41,436 bases of DNA, from assembly GCA_947585965.1 (NCBI GenBank), contig CANPXK010000013.1:1-41436 (forward strand), written 5' to 3'. Under the pieces are notes generated by a model. The model saw only the letters and a list, made by a program, of their open reading frames with translations. It ran no database searches and was not told where the DNA came from. Below, in pieces: positions 3,683-16,296 of this stretch; positions within the stretch are counted from its first letter, which is position 1; each line of letters opens with the position of its first letter. The translations under genes and the position numbers were made by a program. The DNA comes from an uncultured Clostridia bacterium (GTDB lineage Bacteria > Bacillota > Clostridia > Oscillospirales > Acutalibacteraceae).

Positions 3683-5392
3683 CTATATTTCAACGTAATC
3701 TTCCTCATATTCTTCGGTATGCTTTGGTTTGGTTTTTGGCTTTCTCTGTTTAGGCTTATGACGGGCATATGTCCTTTCGTCTGCGGATTTTATAAAAGCG
3801 AGTATTCCCCAGCAGGCTGCCATACTTGTTCCGCCGTAGCTGACAAAGGGAAATGTCACACCTGTCAGCGGAAGTATATCTGTTACGCCGAAAATGTTGA
3901 GTGCGGCCTGAAATACAAGAAGACCTCCGGCGGAGCAGGCGGCAATAGAGTAGAAAGTTGAGCGGCTGCGTGTTGTGACTGCTCTTGCGTAAAGCATAAG
4001 ACCGCCTATAACAAATGAACAAAGCAGGGCGATAATGCATCCCAATTCCTCACACATAAGGCAGAATACGAGGTCATTTTCCGAGGCGAATACATATTGC
4101 AGATATCCTTTGGAAAGCCCCACGCCGAAAAGACCTCCGCTTGCGGAGTATATAAGAGAGCGAACCTGCTGATAGCCTCCGGCTACATCTGCATAGTCCC
4201 ACACGTGTCCCCAGGCGGCGAAACGCTCGGCGATATAGGGCTTGACGGAAAGCATTGTCAGCGCGCCGAGGACAGCCGCGGTTATTGCAAGGATAACGGT
4301 TTTTATATCGCCCGAACGCATGAATGCGATTATAAGGAATGTCACAAAGAATATAACTGCCGTTCCGAAATCGCTCATAAGGACAAGACATCCGACGCTT
4401 GCTGCCGATACGAAAATAAATGCGGCAAGGCTTTTTTTGGTTTGGAGTACATCGAGTGTTGACGCACCCACAAAGATATATGCAATTTTGGCAAATTCTG
4501 ACGGCTGCACCGACAGCGGGCCTATTATTATCCAGTTTTTGGCACCGTTCACGCTTTTTCCTATGACAAGTGTTGATGCGAGCAGCAGCAGGGTAAGGAC
4601 GGATATTGCGATATGCCATTTCATTACTCTGTCGGGAATTTCAATGAACCAAAGCATAAACGAATATATAAACAATCCGAGCACCATTGCGCCGAGCTGC
4701 ATATATGCCTGTCTTGTATCATGTGAAGCCGCAAGGATTATACCTGTTCCGGAGAGCAGCATTGCAAGGGATTCAAGCTCGAAATTAAGTCTTTTGAATG
4801 CAGCCCGTGAAATGGCATAATACAGCCAGATTACAACGATGAATGCAATACCGGGAATGAGGGCATCGGTATTTCCCATGTTTATAACTGCCTGAAGAAC
4901 AAGCAATGCGGTGTATAATGTAACAAACGATAATATTATGCCCTGAGGGAAGATTTTTCTTTCATGTCTAGGTTCAGCCGCACCCGTATCTGAGGCACGG
5001 CGCAGAACGAGTGATGTTGTTCCGCAGGTTATGATATCTCCGACTGCAACCTGATGTCTTCCGACAGTTCTTTCGCCGTTTACATATACGCCGGATTTTG
5101 AGCCTGTGTCCGTTACGAACCATCCGTCATTTCGCCTGAGCAGAACGGCATGGTCTCTTGACACGGTAGGGTCGGAAAGTTTTATATCGGAGCTTCTGCT
5201 TCTTCCGATAGAGTTTTCCCAATACAGAACGGGAAAGGTTATATTATCCTTTTCATTTTCCAATACAATGAGAGCGTGTTCATTTCTTCTTCCGCCTCTT
5301 AGTGAGGAGAAAGCCATTATTATTACAATCAGAGCCAGAAAAGGCTCTGCAAGTCTTATTGCAAATGATGCAATCTCGGCTATATGCTCCAA
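3683..5392 (-). CDS. FHA-domain SEDS peptidoglycan polymerase (FtsW/RodA/SpoVE family)
   Basis: A membrane glycosyltransferase that polymerises lipid II. The architecture is an N-terminal membrane segment, an FHA phosphothreonine-binding domain (about residues 50-130; GRSRSSDI, SRDHAVL and VNGE core motifs), then about ten membrane helices of the SEDS fold, including QPSEFAKIA and FVSYGGTSM. An ATG at 5434 has no ribosome binding site, whereas CGGAGG lies nine bases before a TTG at 5392; the latter gives 569 residues and a more normal N-terminus. The FHA fusion suggests control by a Ser/Thr kinase such as PrkC, by analogy with the FHA proteins around mycobacterial RodA/PbpA. It is the first gene of the operon with the PBP downstream. 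The very basic C-terminal tail (KPKQRKPKTKPK) is probably cytoplasmic. Confidence 0.9.
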   Translation of the reverse strand: MEHIAEIASFAIRLAEPFLALIVIIMAFSSLRGGRRNEHALIVLENEKDNITFPVLYWENSIGRSRSSDIKLSDPTVSRDHAVLLRRNDGWFVTDTGSKSGVYVNGERTVGRHQVAVGDIITCGTTSLVLRRASDTGAAEPRHERKIFPQGIILSFVTLYTALLVLQAVINMGNTDALIPGIAFIVVIWLYYAISRAAFKRLNFELESLAMLLSGTGIILAASHDTRQAYMQLGAMVLGLFIYSFMLWFIEIPDRVMKWHIAISVLTLLLLASTLVIGKSVNGAKNWIIIGPLSVQPSEFAKIAYIFVGASTLDVLQTKKSLAAFIFVSAASVGCLVLMSDFGTAVIFFVTFLIIAFMRSGDIKTVILAITAAVLGALTMLSVKPYIAERFAAWGHVWDYADVAGGYQQVRSLIYSASGGLFGVGLSKGYLQYVFASENDLVFCLMCEELGCIIALLCSFVIGGLMLYARAVTTRSRSTFYSIAACSAGGLLVFQAALNIFGVTDILPLTGVTFPFVSYGGTSMAACWGILAFIKSADERTYARHKPKQRKPKTKPKHTEEYEEDYVEI

Positions 5393-5552
5393 ATTTTTTC
5401 GCCTCCGTTTTTTCCTTACATCATAATATACCATTTTTTTCGGTAAATTTCCATATGAATTGAAAAAATATAATACTTATACAAAAAAATGGGAGAACTT
5501 CAACAAACTGACTGAACTGCCTGATATTTTTTATTGTTTTTTAATAAAAATA

Positions 5553-5581
5553 TTGACTTTTAAGAAAATATATATTATAAT
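5553..5581 (+). promoter_or_regulatory. Sigma-A-type promoter of the pilus island
   Basis: TTGACT (5553-5558), exact 17-bp spacer, TATAAT (5576-5581). Transcription would start near 5588, leaving a leader of about 100 nt before the adhesin. It is among the best promoters in the window, so the island is probably well transcribed and controlled at a later step. Confidence 0.8.
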
Positions 5582-5654
5582 CGAAGCATACAAATTCACA
5601 GTGATTTATGACGGTTTGAAAATCCGCACTGTAGGCGGTGTGTTTTAGGGCTGT

Positions 5655-5672
5655 CGGAGAGTGATATTTGTG
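5655..5672 (+). promoter_or_regulatory. Alternative ribosome binding site and GTG start ahead of the G tract
   Basis: CGGAGAG (5655-5661) sits eight bases before a GTG at 5670. That frame reads V-K-A-G-G through the G tract. At the present length of nine G it ends at a TAA (5706-5708); with eight or eleven G it would fuse in frame to the adhesin. Confidence 0.4.
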
Positions 5673-5677
5673 AAGGC

Positions 5678-5686
5678 GGGGGGGGG
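5678..5686 (+). repeat. Homopolymeric G9 tract at the adhesin start
   Basis: Nine consecutive G residues five bases before the adhesin GTG at 5692. The tract doubles as that start's only ribosome binding site. It is the longest G run in this AT-rich window and the type of simple repeat that changes length by slipped-strand mispairing. Confidence 0.7.
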
Positions 5687-5691
5687 TAAAA

Positions 5692-8600
5692 GTGAAAAAA
5701 ATATATAATTTTCAAGGGTACAGTTTCCCTCACGGCAGGAGTTTATTTGCCGTGGGCAGGAGAGCTGTGTCCTTTTTGCTTGTATGTCTGATTATTGTTT
5801 CGCTGTTCCCCGGAATTAATAATACTGAGGCAGCCGGAGACAGCGGTACCAGCCAAACTAAATATTCGGACATTAACGCATTTCAGAAGGCACAGATAGC
5901 AGAAATTCAAAAAGCCATCTTTAACGGGGAGCATCAGGATGATCAGCCGGAATCGGATCCCGATGTAGTTCAGGAGTGGACTGTTAAAGAAAACAATGCC
6001 TATTTTACCTGGACCGATACGAGCAGTTTTACTGATAAAGAAGGTAATACGTTAAAGCCATGGGATGGTAAGATCAGTTATACTGTTGGAGACTATACAA
6101 GTCTGTTTCCCAATGACGGTGAAAGAGAGAGTCTGATATGGAAGTATAAGTATAAGAAGCCTTTATCCTTTAACGAGTCTAATGCTTCGTTTGAATATGA
6201 AAACGAGTATTCCTATGCGGAATACATAGTATTTAATATACGTACTCCCGAGCAGTTCAGATATGCCATGGAATATACCATGAGAGATGCGGCAAGGGAT
6301 AAAAATATACTTATAAACCTTTTGAACGATTTGGATATGGGAGGAAAAGACGGGAGGCTTTGGGAGCCGATAAAGATTTATCATGATAATGGGGCTAATT
6401 TTGTCGGTTCGGGTAATCCGTATCCGAGTACTGATACTACCGGTGTTAATTCAATTTATATCGAGGGAAACGGTTATACCATTTACAATTTGCGTGTAAA
6501 GAGTGCATCCGCCGGTAATAATGGAGGACTTTTTGCTGATGTGAATTGTCCTTTGATTGTGAAAAACCTTGGATTCAAATCCTCAATGGTGATTGCCAAA
6601 GGCAACACCGGACTTATATACGGACGTTCTGATTCTGATAATAAAAGATATGATAATAGGTTTACTTATCTGTATAATGTCCACTCGTCAGATTGCTATA
6701 TGCAAACAAGTGCTGATTATGCCGGTGGTCTTATTGGAAGAACGATGTATACATACGGGCTTTTTGTGAAGAATTGTTCCACCAACAATGTTATAGTTTA
6801 CGGAAAAAGTCATGTTTCGGGGTTTGCATCGTACACAAGGACATATACCGAGACAGATCGTCCTTGTGCTGTCAGATATAATCAAAAATTTCCCGAGCAT
6901 CCCGAGTGGGCAGCGTTTGATTTGAAGTCTTACAAAGATAAGTGTTATTTCCCTGCTATGTTTGAAGATTCCTATTCGGTCAACTGTGAGATTTTTTCGA
7001 CAGGCATTGACTCCGGATGTTTTATTTCATGCGGAGGAAGTATAATTGCAAGGAATTGCTATACGAACAACAGCATTTATTCGGATTCAAATACCGGAGG
7101 CTTTATCGGACGTGTGGAACTTGGTCTAATGGGGATGTTGGGAGAACAAGGCACGCCTTCGTGCGTAATGTCCTATTTTGAAAACTGCTATTCTTCGGGA
7201 GTTGTTGAAGGCAGAAATGCAATGGGTGGTTTTGTCGGATTTGTTAACTCGGCAAGGTCTAACGGATCATCCTATAAAATTTATGATGCGAAATTTTTAG
7301 AAGAATATGACAGTAATTTGGATTTTTCAGATGATACGCATTGTTTTGGAGATTTTGCTACGGCGGTTTTTGTGAACTGCTATACAACAGCTTCAGTCGG
7401 AATGGACTATGCCGGTCGTTACTGCGGCGGTTTTGTAGGACTTGACGACAATTACTCCATAGGTAATGAAATAATTGTAGACGGCAAGAGTGTCAAATTT
7501 AACGGAACGGCATATATCAACTGCTATGCCGCAGGCGAAGTAGGAAATATTCTTACGGTAACAGATACGTCAAATGCTGATCAAAATGCTGATCAATATT
7601 GGTATTATGAGGGTCTTTATATCGAATCGTATGAGGGATCGGATAATAAGCAGGATGGTACAGTAGAGATTCTTCCTTACTATCCCACAGGCGGTTTTAT
7701 AGGTGTTCTTTGCCCGGAACGCTGGTGGATAGCCAGGGCAGGGGTTACGGACGGTAATAAATATCTTACATTTACTCCGGGAACCGAGGCTGAATCGAAA
7801 TTTCCCGGTTCTAATGAAGATCTTGACAAATATAAGGTTTATGATAAAAGCTTCGGCTATTTCGACAACTGCTATTATGATATGCAGACTACCGCGATGC
7901 GTGAGATGGCAATAGGCATGGCGGGCGGTGATTATGCTCCTGATGAGGGTACTGCAAACGAGGGAATCTATGGAGGTGTGGATTTTAATTTTAAAACCTA
8001 CCGAGGAATTGCGGACGAGCCTTTCTCGGTTGTAGGAATAACCGGTGTGTATACGGAAAAATCCGATGTTAAGGGTGTAGACGGTTTGACCGATTTCCCG
8101 AACGGCCATAACGGATATAACATGAAAGGTGATGTATGGCAGTATGAAAAGGGATATTATCCTCAGCTTAAGGTATTTATGACGGATGACGATGTGTTGA
8201 GTACCGCTTCGGATGCGGAATGGAAAAAATCCGTTTTCTATGTTGAGGAACAAGATGATATAATATCGACCGTTGATGGAGTAGGCGAGGTAAGGGAATT
8301 CAAACGTTCATGTGACGGTGATACCTTTAAGAATGAAATAATGGTGGAAAGGGCATTCCGCTTTTCTCAGGCATCAACGGCGGCGGTTATGCTTAACCAC
8401 TGGGACTACATAATGAGTACATCTGACGGTGAGTTATATAATGCGGATAACCCGGACGGTTTTAAAGCAGGTGCCGAGGTTTATGATACGGTGCGTGATA
8501 TTACATCCGATTTTGAGTTTACGTCAGGTATTAACAGTAAACAGAGAGGTATTTCATGGGAAATTGATAAGGATCGTATAGAGAAATATGATTATTTTGA

Positions 8601-11600
8601 GCATTTCGGCGGAGATAAAGGATTCTCGTTGGAATACAAGGTTGACGGGAAAGATATTACCGGAACATTCAATGAGACTATCCTTGAGCTTAATACGGAA
8701 GTAATAACGAACGAGGATACCAATTATAATCATTATACCTGTACCGATTTCTCTCCGGGCAAACAGTTCCTGAGAATTTCCACATACGGCTACGGCGACA
8801 GCGATGATTATAATACATGGCAGAAGGATTATCTTGCATATATGAAATATCAAAAGGATCTGGAGGCTTTTAATAACGCTGCGAAAATCTATTATGCCGT
8901 AATAGGTGATCAGATTGCCAAATGGTTGGAACAAACTGTACCGGGTTACGACTCGGAAACAATGCCAACCAATACACCGGAAAATCTAATGGGCTATTTG
9001 GAGTATCTGAAAACACACGGAACCTACGATGATCGAGGGTACTATGATGATCTTGCACGGATTTACGGTGATGTTATCAACTTATATAAACCTGTCCAAG
9101 ATTACCTTGACAAGCATAATAATGATGACAGCGAGCCTAAGCTTGCGGTTAATGATGTTCTTGTCGTAGGAACACGAGGCATCCGACTGTTGCCCCAGGC
9201 ATACCTTGAAGCCGGAAATGATGCGGAGGTTAATGTTGTTGAGGACAGATTCAATAAAGAATCCAATGTCAATAATGTTTCATTTGGCAAAAACTCCTCG
9301 AGCGGCATTGAGTTTACAACCGGGGACGGAAGGTCAATAAGTGATTTGAGCTTCAGCTACTATAACTTTGCTTTGACAGCAGCCTATGCGGTAACGGATA
9401 AAATCGGTCTCGGAATTTATGATAATTATTCCAATCAAGATTTGACCGACGGTGATCAGGGCATTGTCGGATATGATGAACCATCGTTGAGAGAAGCGGA
9501 TGATTTTTATGCACGTGAAGCGGGTACATACTTTGCTATGTCGTCCGTATTTTCAAAAAATTCCGTATATACGGCCAAAGAATATCCAAGAGAAACGCAG
9601 GGTACCGGTCTTTCAAAGGAAAACCATTTGGCGTACGATTTAAAGGTTGATACGCTGTCTGATATGAACATGATCGGAGATTCCTACGGAGACGGAGCGG
9701 ATAATGTCGGTCAGACGATAGTAAAGGTATATAAGGTTGACGACGACGGTGAGCGGACGAGGGTCAAAATGGATTCCGGTGGAAGAGGCAGCAAGGAGTA
9801 TTATAACTTCCTTAAGTGGTCCGGTATGGCTGTTTTTGAACCCGAGGATATTGGCAATTATGTTGTAGCATTCTATTGGATTATGCCGGACGGCAGATAT
9901 TATACGGATGAAAAAAAGGTTACTGTTTTATCTATCACACCCGGCATTGTTAAGACGGTTGACAAGCAATATGATGAGGTCACCGGCGACAACGAACTGA
10001 CATATACAATAACCTATACAAATAATTTAAGTGCCGACCCGGTTACGTTTGCATTGTTCGATATACTTCCGTTTGAGGGAGATGTCCGTTATGATACGGC
10101 TGAGAAAAATAATAAAAAGACGGATATTACGCAGCGGGAGCAGGATGATGAATTCAGTCTGAAGTTGGATTCAATAGATGTTATTATGGACAGTTATGTT
10201 TCGGTCAAGGGAGTCTATTATACAACCGATGAGGACGTCCGTAAATATATGAGTAGCTCGGGAGATATGATGAATACAGATGCCGCAAAATCTGATAATC
10301 TGGGGCTTAAGCGAGCGGATTCCTCGGCTGGCGGAAGCAACGAGGACGCAGGAACCATTGACACCGAAAAGGGTGGTATTGACTGGAAGGTTTTTAAACC
10401 TGTTCAAAATGCTCGTGCAACATACAGACCCGAGGATCAAAAAGAACAGGAGTTTCAGGATAAAGGTAAAGGTGCAACGGCGGTTGTCGTAAGCGGAGTA
10501 CAGCTTGAGCCAAACAAGAGTATTACGATAGTTATCAAGGTTTCCTATAAGGGCGAAGCGGGCGACTACCTCGTAAACAACGCATTTAACGATATTCTTT
10601 ATAAGAATACAAACGGTGAGGATGCTGAGTTTGCCGGATATTCCGAGCCTGTAACCACAACTATTGTAAAGAGACAGCTTAGCGGTTATGTCTGGGCAGA
10701 CAAGGATAAGGACGGCATATATGATGACGGCGAACAGGCTATCGAAGGTATGCCGGTGAAACTACAGAAGCTGAATAAGGACGGAAAAACTTGGGATGAT
10801 ACAAATTATTATGCTGTATCGAATGAGAACGGTTATTACAGCTTCGACAGTGTGCCTGAAAACGGTACTTTCCGTATTGTATTCACAAAGCCGGACGGCG
10901 GCACGCTTACTGTACATAACGCAGACGGTAAGACGCGAACTGTGGACTATGATGATTTTCTTCTTTCCACTGTTCTTGATGAGGAAACGGTAAACGGCAA
11001 AATCGGTTCTAATAATTTAGCTAAAGAACTTGAGAGTGCGGAAGGGGGATATTATATAGATGGTATTACCATGCCGGAAGCACAGCAGATTTGTGAGGAC
11101 GCTGAGGAACTGCAAAAGAGTATTAAAAATTCAAAAATTGAAAAATCTGTTTTCACAAAATCCTATCAGAACCTTGCACTTTATGAAAACTACGGCTCGA
11201 TAACCGTTCATAAGGTTGGTGAGAATAACCAAAATCTTGAAGGTGTAGTATTCAAACTTGAATACTATGACGATGGCGAAAATACCTGGAAACCGATCGA
11301 TTTTAATGATGACGGCTACCCGATATACAAGGATATCGGAGAAGAAGCGAAGGAGTTATCAACACGCAGTGACGGCAATCTGAATTTTGCTAACTTAAGA
11401 CTGAGTAAAGCCGGAAAATACAGAATTACGGAATTGAGAACGCTTGACGACTATAACCTGCTTGCAGGACCGATTGAGATTGAGCTTCCGTATGCGGTAA
11501 AGAAAGATGAAGCTCCGCCGTCGGGCTTTGAACCTTCCGGAACGTATGATTATGAAAAAGAAGGCTATTACTACTACAAGGACGTAACGATAACGGTAAC

Positions 11601-11757
11601 CAATACGAAAAAAATCAATGCTCTTCTTCCCCAAACAGGAGGAGAAAGCGGATTTGATCCGAAGATTTTCGTCGGAGTTATCCTTGTGATAGTCGGAGTG
11701 GGAATATTGTGTTATGCACTTTTCAGAAAAAAGCCCGAAAAGCATAAGATAGAATAG
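5692..11757 (+). CDS. Giant LPQTG-anchored surface protein, probable pilus tip adhesin
   Basis: A secreted, sortase-attached protein of 2021 residues. Order of parts: long signal peptide (hydrophobic core about 26-41, cleavage near TEA-AG, residue 48); a repeat region (about 265-790) with several GLUG-like units of the form GGFVG...NCYSSGVVEG, typical of beta-helical surface proteins; a long middle region without recognised domains (about 790-1420); a DUF11-like segment (LTYTITYTNNLS); an SdrD B-like domain from about 1664 (GYVWADKDKDGIYDDGE); a SpaA/Cna-B-like domain from about 1833; then L1979-P-Q-T-G1983, a membrane helix and a basic tail. The GTG at 5692 follows the G9 tract; a start at 5670 is possible in other tract lengths. 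It is the first gene of the pilin-sortase operon, which is where ancillary or tip pilins usually lie. The ligand is unknown. Confidence 0.88.
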   Translation: MKKIYNFQGYSFPHGRSLFAVGRRAVSFLLVCLIIVSLFPGINNTEAAGDSGTSQTKYSDINAFQKAQIAEIQKAIFNGEHQDDQPESDPDVVQEWTVKENNAYFTWTDTSSFTDKEGNTLKPWDGKISYTVGDYTSLFPNDGERESLIWKYKYKKPLSFNESNASFEYENEYSYAEYIVFNIRTPEQFRYAMEYTMRDAARDKNILINLLNDLDMGGKDGRLWEPIKIYHDNGANFVGSGNPYPSTDTTGVNSIYIEGNGYTIYNLRVKSASAGNNGGLFADVNCPLIVKNLGFKSSMVIAKGNTGLIYGRSDSDNKRYDNRFTYLYNVHSSDCYMQTSADYAGGLIGRTMYTYGLFVKNCSTNNVIVYGKSHVSGFASYTRTYTETDRPCAVRYNQKFPEHPEWAAFDLKSYKDKCYFPAMFEDSYSVNCEIFSTGIDSGCFISCGGSIIARNCYTNNSIYSDSNTGGFIGRVELGLMGMLGEQGTPSCVMSYFENCYSSGVVEGRNAMGGFVGFVNSARSNGSSYKIYDAKFLEEYDSNLDFSDDTHCFGDFATAVFVNCYTTASVGMDYAGRYCGGFVGLDDNYSIGNEIIVDGKSVKFNGTAYINCYAAGEVGNILTVTDTSNADQNADQYWYYEGLYIESYEGSDNKQDGTVEILPYYPTGGFIGVLCPERWWIARAGVTDGNKYLTFTPGTEAESKFPGSNEDLDKYKVYDKSFGYFDNCYYDMQTTAMREMAIGMAGGDYAPDEGTANEGIYGGVDFNFKTYRGIADEPFSVVGITGVYTEKSDVKGVDGLTDFPNGHNGYNMKGDVWQYEKGYYPQLKVFMTDDDVLSTASDAEWKKSVFYVEEQDDIISTVDGVGEVREFKRSCDGDTFKNEIMVERAFRFSQASTAAVMLNHWDYIMSTSDGELYNADNPDGFKAGAEVYDTVRDITSDFEFTSGINSKQRGISWEIDKDRIEKYDYFEHFGGDKGFSLEYKVDGKDITGTFNETILELNTEVITNEDTNYNHYTCTDFSPGKQFLRISTYGYGDSDDYNTWQKDYLAYMKYQKDLEAFNNAAKIYYAVIGDQIAKWLEQTVPGYDSETMPTNTPENLMGYLEYLKTHGTYDDRGYYDDLARIYGDVINLYKPVQDYLDKHNNDDSEPKLAVNDVLVVGTRGIRLLPQAYLEAGNDAEVNVVEDRFNKESNVNNVSFGKNSSSGIEFTTGDGRSISDLSFSYYNFALTAAYAVTDKIGLGIYDNYSNQDLTDGDQGIVGYDEPSLREADDFYAREAGTYFAMSSVFSKNSVYTAKEYPRETQGTGLSKENHLAYDLKVDTLSDMNMIGDSYGDGADNVGQTIVKVYKVDDDGERTRVKMDSGGRGSKEYYNFLKWSGMAVFEPEDIGNYVVAFYWIMPDGRYYTDEKKVTVLSITPGIVKTVDKQYDEVTGDNELTYTITYTNNLSADPVTFALFDILPFEGDVRYDTAEKNNKKTDITQREQDDEFSLKLDSIDVIMDSYVSVKGVYYTTDEDVRKYMSSSGDMMNTDAAKSDNLGLKRADSSAGGSNEDAGTIDTEKGGIDWKVFKPVQNARATYRPEDQKEQEFQDKGKGATAVVVSGVQLEPNKSITIVIKVSYKGEAGDYLVNNAFNDILYKNTNGEDAEFAGYSEPVTTTIVKRQLSGYVWADKDKDGIYDDGEQAIEGMPVKLQKLNKDGKTWDDTNYYAVSNENGYYSFDSVPENGTFRIVFTKPDGGTLTVHNADGKTRTVDYDDFLLSTVLDEETVNGKIGSNNLAKELESAEGGYYIDGITMPEAQQICEDAEELQKSIKNSKIEKSVFTKSYQNLALYENYGSITVHKVGENNQNLEGVVFKLEYYDDGENTWKPIDFNDDGYPIYKDIGEEAKELSTRSDGNLNFANLRLSKAGKYRITELRTLDDYNLLAGPIEIELPYAVKKDEAPPSGFEPSGTYDYEKEGYYYYKDVTITVTNTKKINALLPQTGGESGFDPKIFVGVILVIVGVGILCYALFRKKPEKHKIE

Positions 11758-11780
11758 TTTAGATTTATGTTTTGCTGCCA

Positions 11781-11796
11781 CGGCACATCAGTGCCG
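11781..11796 (+). other. Intercistronic hairpin between adhesin and pilin
   Basis: CGGCAC-ATCA-GTGCCG, a 6-bp stem followed by A-rich rather than U-rich sequence. It is more likely an RNA processing or stabilising element than a terminator. It may let the pilin message accumulate above that of the adhesin. Confidence 0.4.
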
Positions 11797-11826
11797 AAAA
11801 AATATAAAATTAAGGAGGAAAATATT

Positions 11827-13443
11827 ATGAAAATATTGAAGAGATTAACGGCGTGTATTCTTACGGTCATGCTTATGTCGATGATGTTTGTCATTAATGC
11901 ATCGGCAGCGGCGGAGTTGCCGGCAGATAACTCGGGTACACTTACATTGGAAAAGTACGCTGAGAACAGCAATAAGGGAACTCCTGTAACAGGGGCAGTA
12001 TTTACGGCTTATGAGGTTATGAAACTCGACAGAAATACCGGTAAATATACTGTAACTCAAAACTTCAGCGGTGTCGCCGGGCTTTCGGATGAGCTTCAGC
12101 TGAACGGTCTGACATATAAAAGTACAGACGAACTGCAAGGTATGGTAAATACACTCCATGACTATGCTTTGGACAAAAGTCATAATGTTGTAAACGGTGC
12201 CAATGGTGCTGTCTACACATCAAACGAAGGAACAACGGGAGAATATACGTTTACCGGTATGGATCTTGGTATATATCTTGTAGTTGAGACAACAATCCCG
12301 AGTAAATATACCGCTTCATCGCAGTCTTTCCTTGTAGCTATTCCCGAATGGGACAACACTACCGGAGCATGGAACGCAAACGTAACGGCATATCCGAAAG
12401 ATAAACCCATAAATATTGTCAAGACTCTCACCGATAGTGCTCAGACTGATTATCAGATCGGCGACCGTGTCGGATTTACCATTACCTCGGATGTTCCCCA
12501 ATATGGAGAAGTTGGAGATACAAGTAAATTTGTTTACTATATTTCGGATACTATGTCCGAAGGTCTTACGTTTGCCGAAGATTCGTTAAATGTTAAGGTT
12601 GCCGGAAAAAGTTTGTCTAAAGGTACGGATTATACGATTAATACCGAATCAACGGAAATAGATGGTGCAACGTTCAAATTAACTTTCCCGTGGGACACGA
12701 TAAAAAAATATCAAGGTAAACAAATTGTAGTTACCTATGACGGCATTCTTAATGAAAATGCAGTTGTCGGTGCGGTTGCGAATTCAAAAAACAGCAACAA
12801 AGCAAAGCTTACATATACGCACAGCTTTAACACCGGTGATGATACTGAGGAAGATATTGACACTACGGAGGTGGATGTCTATACATACGGCATGGAATTG
12901 ACGAAAACCTTTAACGGTGCGGAAGCTGATGGGACTGAGATTAATGCATCGGGTGTTGAGTTCTCCATGAAAAAGGACGGAGCTGCAATGAATTTTGCAG
13001 AGAAAAATACTGAGGCAGGCGTTTATACCGTCTATACAGATGATATGGGTACACTCTCAGGCTATTCGGAAAAAACAACTGTACTCAAGCCGAACAGTGA
13101 AGGAGTCCTTAAGATCAACGGTCTTGATGCCGGAACCTATACACTTACCGAGGAAAAGAGCCTTGACGGATACAGCAAGCTTGCAGGTTCTGTGGAAATA
13201 GTTGTTGCAGCAGGTGCAAACGGTCAGGGAGAAGTAAGTGCAACAGTTGAAGGTTCGGGTGTTAGCAATAAAAATGATAATGCCGGTATATTTGAGTTTA
13301 CCGTAAACAATGTATCTAAGCAGTTTGATCTTCCTCTCACAGGCGGCACGGGACTTCTGATATTCACAATCGGCGGCGGTGTTATCATGGCGGCAGCTAT
13401 AATAATATTTTCGCAGCTCCGTAAAAAGAAGTCGGCAAAATAG
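11827..13443 (+). CDS. LPLTG backbone pilin, SpaA/FimA type
   Basis: The major subunit of a sortase-assembled pilus, 538 residues. It shows a signal peptide (to about residue 30, INASAAA), Cna-B/SpaA-like domains, a pilin motif W182-N-A-N-V-T-A-Y-P-K191 whose Lys191 should be the acceptor for cross-linking, an E-box (YTLTEEKSLDGY, Glu442) of the kind that assists an intramolecular isopeptide bond, and the sorting signal L502-P-L-T-G506 with membrane helix and KKK tail. The ATG at 11827 is chosen because AAGGAGG lies seven bases upstream; an earlier in-frame ATG at 11767 has no such site and no signal peptide directly after it. It is followed by three sortase genes. Family assignment is firm; the type of host or surface bound is unknown. 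Confidence 0.93.
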   Translation: MKILKRLTACILTVMLMSMMFVINASAAAELPADNSGTLTLEKYAENSNKGTPVTGAVFTAYEVMKLDRNTGKYTVTQNFSGVAGLSDELQLNGLTYKSTDELQGMVNTLHDYALDKSHNVVNGANGAVYTSNEGTTGEYTFTGMDLGIYLVVETTIPSKYTASSQSFLVAIPEWDNTTGAWNANVTAYPKDKPINIVKTLTDSAQTDYQIGDRVGFTITSDVPQYGEVGDTSKFVYYISDTMSEGLTFAEDSLNVKVAGKSLSKGTDYTINTESTEIDGATFKLTFPWDTIKKYQGKQIVVTYDGILNENAVVGAVANSKNSNKAKLTYTHSFNTGDDTEEDIDTTEVDVYTYGMELTKTFNGAEADGTEINASGVEFSMKKDGAAMNFAEKNTEAGVYTVYTDDMGTLSGYSEKTTVLKPNSEGVLKINGLDAGTYTLTEEKSLDGYSKLAGSVEIVVAAGANGQGEVSATVEGSGVSNKNDNAGIFEFTVNNVSKQFDLPLTGGTGLLIFTIGGGVIMAAAIIIFSQLRKKKSAK

Positions 13444-13472
13444 ATATGAAAGCTATTGTTAATATTATGGAT

Positions 13473-13505
13473 ACAGAGAGAACAGTGTTTTGCCGTTCTC
13501 TCTGT
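13473..13505 (+). promoter_or_regulatory. Perfect 11-bp hairpin between pilin and sortase genes
   Basis: ACAGAGAGAAC, 11-nt loop, GTTCTCTCTGT; then ATTTGCAGTTTTT. It sits 30 bases after the pilin stop. It may be a leaky terminator or processing site that keeps sortase expression below pilin expression. Confidence 0.6.
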
Positions 13506-13537
13506 ATTTGCAGTTTTTGTAAAGCAGGTAACGGGTT

Positions 13538-14413
13538 TTGAAAAAAGTATTGATTATCATATTCGGCTCCATTGTCCTTGCGGCGGGACTGCTGTTGGTT
13601 TTTTACCCTTTCATAAGCAATTACCTTATGGGACTGAACCATGACAGTGAGCTCATAGAGCAGCAGTCCGCGGTAGAAAAACTGAATAAAAATGAAATAG
13701 ATAAGGCCTTTGAGGATGCATACAGTTATAACAAAAGTCTTCTCGGAAATATTCAGCTTACCGACCCTTTCGACCCCGGATACAGGGCAGAAACCGATTT
13801 GGAATATGAGGCTTTGCTTGATGTTAATGGTGATTCCGTAATCGGAAGTATAGAGATACCCTCAATTTCCGTAAATCTCCCGATCTACCACGGAACGGAT
13901 TCGGAAATTCTCCTGAAAGGCATAGGTCATCTTCAAAGGACCTCCCTGCCTGTCGGCGGAAAGGGTACACATTCCGTCCTCACGGGACACAGCGGCCTTT
14001 CCTCGGCAGCTCTTTTCACGGATATAGACAAGCTTAAATCGGGAGACGTTTTCTATATACACGTCCTCGGAAAAACACTTGCCTATCAGGTGGACAGGAT
14101 AAGTGTAGTAAAGCCTGATGAAACAAACAGTCTGAGAATAGATACGGAAAAGGACTATGTAACGCTTGTCACCTGCACTCCGTACGGTATAAATACACAC
14201 AGACTGCTTGTGCGGGGTGAGCGTATACCCTATGAGGAGGCAGAGAAAATTGTATCGGAAACCGAAAAGGTTGAATCTACATGGATGCTCGAATATAAAA
14301 GGGCATTGCTTGCCGGCGGCGCCGTTCTGGTTATAATAGTATCGACTTTTATAACGGTCAGAACCATAAGGCTCAGGAAGAAAAGAAAAAAGATATTGAT
14401 TGATGGGGAATGA
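13538..14413 (+). CDS. Class C (pilus) sortase 1
   Basis: A membrane cysteine transpeptidase that joins LPXTG threonine to the pilin lysine. It has 291 residues with a membrane helix at each end (about 4-25 and 252-272), as in class C sortases. Active site: His151 (LTGHSGL), Cys213 (TLVTCTPYG), Arg222 (NTHRLLVRG). The lid motif D76-P-F78 that plugs the active site in class C enzymes is present. The start is TTG at 13538 with only a weak GGTAACGGG upstream, which together with the hairpin at 13473-13505 implies low translation. It ends four bases before the next sortase gene. Confidence 0.93.
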   Translation: MKKVLIIIFGSIVLAAGLLLVFYPFISNYLMGLNHDSELIEQQSAVEKLNKNEIDKAFEDAYSYNKSLLGNIQLTDPFDPGYRAETDLEYEALLDVNGDSVIGSIEIPSISVNLPIYHGTDSEILLKGIGHLQRTSLPVGGKGTHSVLTGHSGLSSAALFTDIDKLKSGDVFYIHVLGKTLAYQVDRISVVKPDETNSLRIDTEKDYVTLVTCTPYGINTHRLLVRGERIPYEEAEKIVSETEKVESTWMLEYKRALLAGGAVLVIIVSTFITVRTIRLRKKRKKILIDGE

Positions 14414-14417
14414 TTGT

Positions 14418-15278
14418 ATGAAAAAGGCGGCTCCTGTTATAATATTTATTATACTTATGATTGTCGGTCTGGGGATTTTTATATATCCCTTTGTAAGCAA
14501 TTTGTTTATGAATATGAATTCGGACAGCGAGCTGCAAACCTATCTCAATACCTCAAAACAGACATCTGACGAAAAGAATAATGAAATGCTCCGAAAGGCG
14601 AGGGAATATAACTCACGGCTTGTCGGAAATGTTGAGATAGGTGACCCTTTCGCCGAAAATGCGGAAAGTGATGATGATTATTACAGCCTGCTGAGTCTTG
14701 ACACCACGGATGTTATGGCGGTTCTGGAGATACCGTCAATAGAGATCCGATATCCCGTTTATCACGGCACAGGCGATTCCGTACTCGAAAAAGGCATAGG
14801 TCACCTGAAAAATACATCCCTTCCGGTGGGAGGAAAGGGAACACATTCCGTTCTTGTCGGACATACCGGATATGCCGGCTCAAAGCTTTTTTCGGATCTC
14901 GATAAGCTTGAAAAGGGTGATATGTTCTATATATTAACCTGCGGAGAAAAGCTTGCCTATCGTATAGATCAGATAGAGGTGGTTCTCCCCGAGGAGCTTT
15001 CGCTGCTTGAAATCGACAGCGAAGAGGATTATGTCACCCTTGTGACCTGTACCCCTTTCGGTCAAAATACCCACCGTTTGCTGGTGCGGGGTACCCGTGT
15101 AAGCTATAACGAAAAGGAAAAGCAGGAACAGACCATGCGGCTGAAAAAAAGTACATGGGATGAGCAATATATATATGCCGGCATTATCGGTTTTTCGGTT
15201 ATGGCAGGCATACTGATTGTCTTTTTTATTTTCAGAATAATTTTTAACATACGAAGAAAGAGAAAGCATGATGAATAA
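14418..15278 (+). CDS. Class C (pilus) sortase 2
   Basis: A paralogue of the preceding gene (286 residues) with the same layout: N-terminal membrane helix, lid D76-P-F78, His149 (VGHTGYAG), Cys211 (TLVTCTPFG), Arg220 (NTHRLLVRG), C-terminal membrane helix and basic tail. Starts at 14400 and 14403 are in frame, but GGGGA eight bases before the ATG at 14418 and the match to the MKK start of sortase 1 favour 14418. Two close class C sortases beside one backbone pilin suggest a division of labour, for example polymerisation versus attachment of the adhesin. The product overlaps the next gene by 11 bases. Confidence 0.93.
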   Translation: MKKAAPVIIFIILMIVGLGIFIYPFVSNLFMNMNSDSELQTYLNTSKQTSDEKNNEMLRKAREYNSRLVGNVEIGDPFAENAESDDDYYSLLSLDTTDVMAVLEIPSIEIRYPVYHGTGDSVLEKGIGHLKNTSLPVGGKGTHSVLVGHTGYAGSKLFSDLDKLEKGDMFYILTCGEKLAYRIDQIEVVLPEELSLLEIDSEEDYVTLVTCTPFGQNTHRLLVRGTRVSYNEKEKQEQTMRLKKSTWDEQYIYAGIIGFSVMAGILIVFFIFRIIFNIRRKRKHDE

Positions 15279-16296
15279 AAGGTTTGTAAGAGTTATTTGT
15301 TATATACTGACTGTTGTATTGTTCCTTATAGGTCTGGGGATATTTGTATATCCGCTTATTTCGGGAAATACTGCAAATACAAATCAGAAAATAGTTGTGG
15401 AAAACTTTGAGAACAGACGGAAAACCGTTGTCGAAGAAACCGAACAGCAAAGCAGTAAGGAAACGGATGAGGTATCCGCAGGTGAGGAGGAAAGCGGTAA
15501 CGATAAAGAAAATAACAATATGCCGTATAAGCAGCTGTATGAGGAAATGAAAAGGTACAATGATAATATATATAAGGACGGTCAGGCGGGACTTTGTGAT
15601 GCATGGATATATGAGCAGGCAAGTGTGAACCTTTCCGCCTATGGTTTTTCGGATGAGCCTGTTGCAGTGCTGAGAGTTCCGAAAATGAATAATCTTGAAA
15701 TGCCTGTTTATCTCGGTGCTTCGTATAATAATATGGCGAGAGGTGCCGCACAGCTCGGACAGACGTCAATGCCCATAGGAGGAAAAAATACAAATTGTGT
15801 ATTGGCAGGACACAGAGGCTGGAGCGGAGCGGAATATTTTCTTAATATCGAACAGTTGGAAATAGGCGATGATGTATATATAGATAACCTTTGGGAAACG
15901 CTTTCCTATAAGGTTTGCGAAATCAAGGTCATATACCCGAGTGATATTGATTCAATTCTTATCCGTAAAAATGAGGATATGGTCACGCTCATAACCTGCC
16001 ATCCGTATTGGGCGAGCACCTACAGATATGCGGTATTCTGCAGACGTGTTGATGACGGCAAGCTAACCGATAAGGAGGAAAGCCGTGCCGATAGTGTTAA
16101 TTCGGATTCAGAGACTCAGACCGTTTCCGATTCTTCCAATGAAGCTGAAAAGGAAGTTGTTATCTCCACGCAGGATGCCGGAATATCCGAAAGAATAATT
16201 ATGCTTGAAAAAATCTCCTATGTTGCCGTGCCTGTACTGCTTATAGTTCTTTTTGCCATTTTGATTCCTAAGCGAAAGTCTAAAAATAAAATATAA
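15268..16296 (+). CDS. Divergent class C-like sortase 3
   Basis: A 342-residue sortase with terminal membrane helices. His182 (LAGHRGW), Cys244 (TLITCHPYW) and Arg253 (STYRYAVF) are in place. It differs from its two neighbours: the lid is D111-A-W113 in place of DPF, a charged Glu/Lys/Ser-rich stretch (about 48-85) follows the first helix, the usual NTHRLLVRG is replaced by STYRYAVFCRR, and a second acidic/Ser-rich stretch precedes the C-terminal helix. It starts inside the end of sortase 2 (ATG ATG at 15268/15271), which implies translational coupling. It may handle a different substrate, such as the LPQTG adhesin rather than the LPLTG pilin; that is a guess. Confidence 0.9.
   Translation: MMNKRFVRVICYILTVVLFLIGLGIFVYPLISGNTANTNQKIVVENFENRRKTVVEETEQQSSKETDEVSAGEEESGNDKENNNMPYKQLYEEMKRYNDNIYKDGQAGLCDAWIYEQASVNLSAYGFSDEPVAVLRVPKMNNLEMPVYLGASYNNMARGAAQLGQTSMPIGGKNTNCVLAGHRGWSGAEYFLNIEQLEIGDDVYIDNLWETLSYKVCEIKVIYPSDIDSILIRKNEDMVTLITCHPYWASTYRYAVFCRRVDDGKLTDKEESRADSVNSDSETQTVSDSSNEAEKEVVISTQDAGISERIIMLEKISYVAVPVLLIVLFAILIPKRKSKNKI

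Follow-up and report, generated by a model that had tools for sequence, protein, structure and literature searches.

Upstream of a giant adhesin gene in an uncultured Clostridia bacterium, a run of nine G residues stands directly before a GTG start codon at position 5692 (GTG5692), and a second GTG lies on the far side of the run at 5670 (GTG5670). The locus raises the question of whether the run is a slippery tract that switches the adhesin on and off, as the first-pass annotation proposed, or the site at which ribosomes bind to translate it. In the window, by which we mean the whole 41,436-nucleotide stretch of DNA analysed, we arrived at a probability of about one in two that translation of the adhesin truly starts at GTG5692 and that the G9 tract provides its Shine-Dalgarno site, in an ordinary pilus operon.

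The adhesin is the first gene of a sortase-pilus operon

The adhesin gene is followed by a gene for a SpaH/EbpB-type major pilin and by three class C sortase genes (Table 1), which places it at the head of a sortase-pilus operon; as in sortase-dependent (SpaA-type) pilus operons, class C sortases adjoin LPXTG pilins that have a pilin backbone domain. The size of the adhesin and the gene order suggest that it is the tip protein. Transcription probably starts at about 5588, and since the promoter-like hexamer pair ends at 5581, the tract would lie downstream of both promoter elements, not between them, and roughly 90 nt from the start of a leader some 104 nt long. A further sortase cluster is found elsewhere in the genome (L140:80-13408, on contig G000:C24), where an LPXTG protein without an NCBIfam match, some 4442 residues long in the listed frame, is followed by another LPXTG protein and two sortases.

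Table 1. Features of the pilus locus, in window coordinates.
Feature	Position	Strand	Remarks
Pilus islet	5470..16282	.	absent at the collinear site of sister genome G065
Sigma-70/A-type promoter-like pair, TTGACT-17-TATAAT	5553..5581	+	11/12 consensus positions; both hexamers unchanged in sister copy
Presumed 5' leader of pilus operon	5588..5691	+	differs from sister copy at 2/104 positions
Predicted leader hairpin, over part of the upstream Shine-Dalgarno site and the whole of GTG5670	5595..5674	+	z -1.5
CGGAGAG, possible Shine-Dalgarno site of GTG5670	5655..5661	+	CGAAGAG in sister copy
Possible upstream ORF, 12 codons, GTG...TAA, crossing the G tract	5670..5708	+	overlaps adhesin start out of frame at 9 G; frame the same in sister copy
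G9 tract, best read as Shine-Dalgarno site of GTG5692	5678..5686	+	position, pairing, genus comparison
Giant LPXTG adhesin of 2021 aa, presumed tip protein of the pilus	5692..11757	+	SdrD_B and SpaA domains; signal peptide and LPQTG anchor by inspection
SpaH/EbpB-family LPXTG major pilin	11767..13443	+	NF033902, 167 bits (cut-off 95)
Class C sortase (first)	13538..14413	+	profile match
Class C sortase (second)	14400..15278	+	profile match
Class C sortase (third)	15268..16296	+	profile match

The tract lies between two start codons in different frames

Re-reading the sequence placed the tract, both GTG codons and the CGGAGAG motif exactly where the first-pass annotation had put them. The tract is five bases upstream of GTG5692 (spacer TAAAA). 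At nine Gs the frame that opens at GTG5670, VKAGGGKSEKNI, is out of frame with GTG5692 and ends at a stop codon at 5706-5708, bearing out the stop predicted at 5706. The two start codons are 22 bases apart and, by arithmetic, would share one frame at 8 G or 11 G, so the proposed in-frame fusion on loss of one G or gain of two has the right geometry. At 10 G, the frame from GTG5670 terminates at a TAA immediately 3' of the tract, two bases ahead of GTG5692, which is an arrangement for reinitiation and not an 'off' state.

A switch by slippage is possible on this layout, the layout being what speaks for it. Ribosomes would start at GTG5670 and slippage in the tract would decide the outcome: 8 or 11 G would lead into the adhesin, 10 G would give a stop before GTG5692 followed by reinitiation, and 9 G would give the out-of-frame stop that ends at 5708 and low expression. 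The geometry of the proposed phase variation was correct and is kept in a sister copy of the locus from a related genome, and it has a real precedent in Bifidobacterium breve, with an upstream ORF of 24 nt at one locus (PMC9187656). In the window, the upstream site also shows computed pairing with an anti-Shine-Dalgarno tail, as detailed below. Nevertheless, we consider a frame switch rather unlikely, since GTG5692 has a Shine-Dalgarno site of its own and heads an ORF with a whole signal peptide, and further points against it are given in the sections that follow.

The tract is rare in its genome. Only three tracts of at least eight Gs occur in the 2,865,300-base assembly (2.87 Mb), and the sole one of at least nine is that at the first gene of the pilus operon, a placement in keeping with a switch. 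Within the 41 kb window, one G9 was observed against 0.10 expected from dinucleotide shuffles; as 10/100 shuffles reached one, the G9 is rare and well placed, yet a single G9 per 41 kb is not extreme. Both the rarity and the notable placement are those of one locus. Of the contigs that carry the other sortase loci of the genome (C24, C42, C3 and C6), C24, C42 and C3 have no tract of at least eight Gs, and the tract on C6 lies about 19 kb from the sortase match, within an ORF.

These counts bear on whether the length of nine is a matter of chance or of assembly, an unselected extension of a shorter G-rich site. Shuffled windows do yield a G9, and both records are draft assemblies, of 196 and about 100 contigs; against this, such tracts are rare in the assembly and an identical nine Gs appears in two assemblies from different species. 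We regard this explanation as very unlikely.

The tract is the best-pairing site among the starts compared

We computed the pairing of upstream regions with the anti-Shine-Dalgarno sequence of 16S rRNA, using a generic tail and not that of the host genome. The G9 tract has bases complementary to CCUCC at the distance from the start expected of a Shine-Dalgarno site (about 5-10 nt), and it pairs with this tail at -14.6 kcal/mol, the best value of the set; the 19 other starts, which were the first start codons of the listed window ORFs and were taken without check as true starts, ranged from -1.3 to -12.9 kcal/mol. GGGG or GGGGG lies within 17 nt upstream of 3 of these 19. The site upstream of GTG5670, which had been described as the better spaced, pairs less well than the tract, at -12.6 kcal/mol, and at just -6.4 kcal/mol in the sister copy, where one of the two leader substitutions falls within it. 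This drop speaks against a frame switch from GTG5670 and for the tract as the Shine-Dalgarno site of the adhesin.

Tract lengths of 8, 9, 10, 11 and 12 G gave -12.3, -14.6, -15.1, -15.2 and -15.2 kcal/mol, respectively. Because any five Gs can pair, gain or loss of one G should alter translation only modestly; the step from 8 to 9 G still shifts the computed pairing by 2.3 kcal/mol, a difference that is not negligible and counts against a simple Shine-Dalgarno reading.

Predicted RNA folding is less decisive. GTG5670 is predicted to be paired (unpaired probability 0.02 in the window, 0.13 in the sister copy), which disfavours starts there, but the tract is mostly paired in the same fold (0.07 and 0.12), which disfavours its use as a Shine-Dalgarno site as well; since both are paired, folding by itself does not separate the two readings. 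When a longer stretch was folded, the unpaired probability of the tract was 0.21 in the window and 0.83 in the sister copy. We also considered a hairpin in the early coding region that would lock the tract, and rejected it: in this longer fold, 225 of 300 synonymous recodings in the window, and all 300 in the sister copy, made the tract no more open than it is natively, so a selected lock shows no sign. This openness also suits a Shine-Dalgarno role of the tract.

The tract travels with the adhesin and has nine Gs in both copies

A pattern scan of species genomes, which detects close relatives only, returned four loci with relatives of the adhesin. One of them, the sister copy (L005, on contig G065:C71), has the same leader and exactly nine Gs; it comes from an uncultured Clostridia bacterium assembled from a metagenome, isolate 'Lapin', presumably from rabbit. 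The other three (L006-L008, about 41% identical; two share near-identical upstream DNA) have no G tract and carry AGGAGGG instead, and a more distant homologue in genome G006 has AGGGGAC ahead of its start. Relatives of the adhesin thus have ordinary G-rich sites in this place, consistent with the tract being a Shine-Dalgarno site too. In total, the G tract occurs in two of the six adhesin copies whose start region was read, with the window's own copy counted and the weak matches in G028 and G049 left out. Across the genus, 4 of 64 genomes (again including the genome of the window) had an adhesin match; among 394 genomes drawn from the order, the window's genome was the only match at E 1e-10, and no relative was found on plasmids or in the viral contigs scanned.

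The first-pass annotation had held that a fixed tract of nine Gs in deep reads and in related strains would speak against a switch. The tract itself is kept in the sister copy, which a switch would accommodate; its length, however, is nine in both of the two copies compared, the very length at which expression was said to be low. This counts against a frame switch.

The operon looks like a horizontally exchanged islet, as judged from its distribution between the two genomes. At the collinear site of the sister genome (G065:C3, 126048-126140), only 91 bases separate the genes that flank the pilus operon in the window (positions up to 5470 and from 16282 on); these genes are 74-80% identical, and no operon stands between them. 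The leader with the adhesin and the end of the third sortase gene are found on other contigs of that genome (C71, C87 and C22) at 89-94% identity, higher than that of the flanking genes, and other neighbouring stretches are 71-89% identical. Window positions 11749-15811 have no match in G065, where the matching pieces run out at contig ends, so a complete operon is not seen there. The G065 copy includes the first part of an FtsW-like gene (from window position 5244) next to a different neighbour; together with the missing islet at the collinear site, this indicates that leader and tract travel with the adhesin, and the near identity of leader and tract is therefore partly due to young age. Between the two species, dN/dS of the adhesin was 0.86 and 0.92 for the two gene halves, which suggests weak constraint or diversification of a surface protein.

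The leader is conserved

The leader differs less between the two copies than the adhesin gene would lead one to expect: at the rate of fourfold sites in the N-terminal halves of the adhesins, where 27 of 331 differ, 8.5 differences would be expected against the two observed (Poisson P 0.009). The predicted leader hairpin was matched or bettered by 16 of 200 shuffles and, with its z of -1.5, is weak as evidence for a selected structure. A search of the window with Rfam gave no match to a known RNA in the leader at gathering scores. With conservation beyond that of fourfold sites and a long predicted hairpin, positions 5588-5691 may hold an unrecognised regulatory RNA. The genome has no convincing second copy of the leader, the best non-self match covering 54 bases at E 0.0077. 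A viral contig contains 18 bases of the leader, which we took as a chance match, as they lie by eye in a phage polymerase-like gene and the rest of the leader is absent.

Leader conservation also counts in favour of an explanation without a frame switch, in which slippage would alter RNA folding, spacing or transcript level and so tune the amount of pili. Such graded expression would suit the place of the tract in the presumed 5' leader, uspA1 of Moraxella catarrhalis being a comparable adhesin gene (PMC7302503). In Mycobacterium tuberculosis, the espR leader begins with a G tract in which gain of one G is reported to change folding and translation (PMC11898584). On the other hand, between 8 and 11 G the computed pairing energy shifts by at most 2.9 kcal/mol with little change in predicted accessibility, and both copies have the same length; we think graded expression unlikely.

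G runs near starts across the genus

We compared G and C tracts of at least eight bases in 61 genomes of the genus, asking for a tract 3-12 nt before an ATG or GTG that begins an ORF of 80 aa or longer and for enough sequence downstream of the tract; these ORFs were not individually checked as genes, and C tracts were counted alike. By this measure, 12 of 94 G tracts were start-proximal vs 2 of 89 C tracts (Fisher P 0.010), and P was 0.033 with the two pilus copies removed. At lengths of at least nine, 3 of 23 G tracts passed (both pilus copies and L050), so a start-proximal position is unusual at this length. A layout of start codon, tract and signal peptide was found in none of the 16 tracts of at least nine Gs inspected for it, the other seven of the 23 being those of the window, the sister copy, L056, L057 (two), L044 and L059; these 16 thus give no indication of a general poly-G switch in the genus, a further point against a frame switch.

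In the assembly of the window, another of the three tracts of at least eight Gs is an 8-G run five nt ahead of an ATG. In its place the sister genome has GGAGGG, followed by a start that by eye appears homologous, so that a G run and a normal site stand in for one another; the start behind the 8-G run is uncertain, as an in-frame GTG also lies upstream of the run. From these sequence comparisons, G runs appear to serve as Shine-Dalgarno sites in the genus.

Two further G9 tracts may be recorded. That of L050 (G062:C177:3556-3564) lies 11 nt before an ATG that opens an ORF of 496 codons or more, which includes a hydrophobic stretch, and that at L054:1501-1509 (G032:C228) lies shortly upstream of a lipoprotein-like gene that by eye seems to have its own Shine-Dalgarno site.

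A poly-G Shine-Dalgarno site as the favoured explanation

Taken as the Shine-Dalgarno site of the adhesin, the tract would work as follows: transcription would begin near 5588 from the predicted sigma-A-type promoter; ribosomes would bind the G run, whose register could slide against CCUCC; and initiation would take place at GTG5692, the start of an ORF with a complete signal peptide. Changes in tract length would then probably have little effect. This role accounts for more of the evidence than a switch does. There are points against it: the longest G tract of the assembly heads a pilus operon, which an ordinary site need not do; nine Gs is longer than such a site needs; and a site of 18 Gs is reported to have performed poorly in tests in E. 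coli (PMC3310771).

The two roles could also be combined, in a contingency locus of gut Clostridia whose slippery tract is itself a Shine-Dalgarno site, giving a fused start at 8 or 11 G, coupled reinitiation at 10 G and an independent start at 9 G, and travelling with the islet. We consider this unlikely. If the tract slips and this matters, the pilus switch of Bifidobacterium would have a counterpart in another phylum of gut commensals, and the locus would present a Shine-Dalgarno site that doubles as a contingency tract. If not, it is a warning that start-adjacent G runs may be no more than ribosome-binding sites in this group, so that a G tract beside an adhesin gene is not on its own evidence of phase variation.

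Comparison with known systems

Among the matches listed in the open-access literature, we found no paper on poly-G switching of pili in Clostridia. The closest system is that of B. breve UCC2003, in which slippage is reported for the G tracts that head two pilus operons and joins an upstream ORF (24 nt at bbr_0113) to the first pilin gene; six B. breve strains have similarly placed tracts of 9-11 G, and lengths of 8-13 are given in Table 1 of that paper (PMC9187656). The present locus is alike in that a G tract heads the first sortase-pilus gene in a Gram-positive gut commensal, with an upstream ORF and similar tract lengths. It differs in two respects: firstly, the B. breve main ORF is said to lack a canonical Shine-Dalgarno site and a signal peptide and hence to need the fusion, whereas the adhesin ORF has both (the site at -14.6 kcal/mol, the signal peptide by inspection); secondly, length variation was measured in B. 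breve, whereas none is seen here in two copies. The upstream start signals here are mixed, with pairing of the site at -12.6 kcal/mol in the window and -6.4 kcal/mol in the sister copy and a start codon predicted to be paired. Because a main ORF without canonical Shine-Dalgarno site and signal peptide is a defining feature there, we do not file the locus as a member of the Bifidobacterium type, though it may work alike.

The uspA1 tract of M. catarrhalis is likewise a G tract just upstream of an adhesin ORF and outside the coding sequence; it lies 29 bp upstream, mRNA level is reported to vary with its length, and lengths ranged from 6 to 11 among five strains (PMC7302503), whereas the tract described here is 5 nt from the start, in Shine-Dalgarno position, and nine Gs long in both copies. 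The surface-protein gene inlA of the Gram-positive Listeria monocytogenes likewise has a homopolymer tract at its 5' end, but this tract is poly(A) and lies within the coding sequence (PMC2831843). With ordinary G-rich Shine-Dalgarno sites, the tract shares its place five nt before the start and its pairing with CCUCC, and it differs from them in being unusually long and pure.
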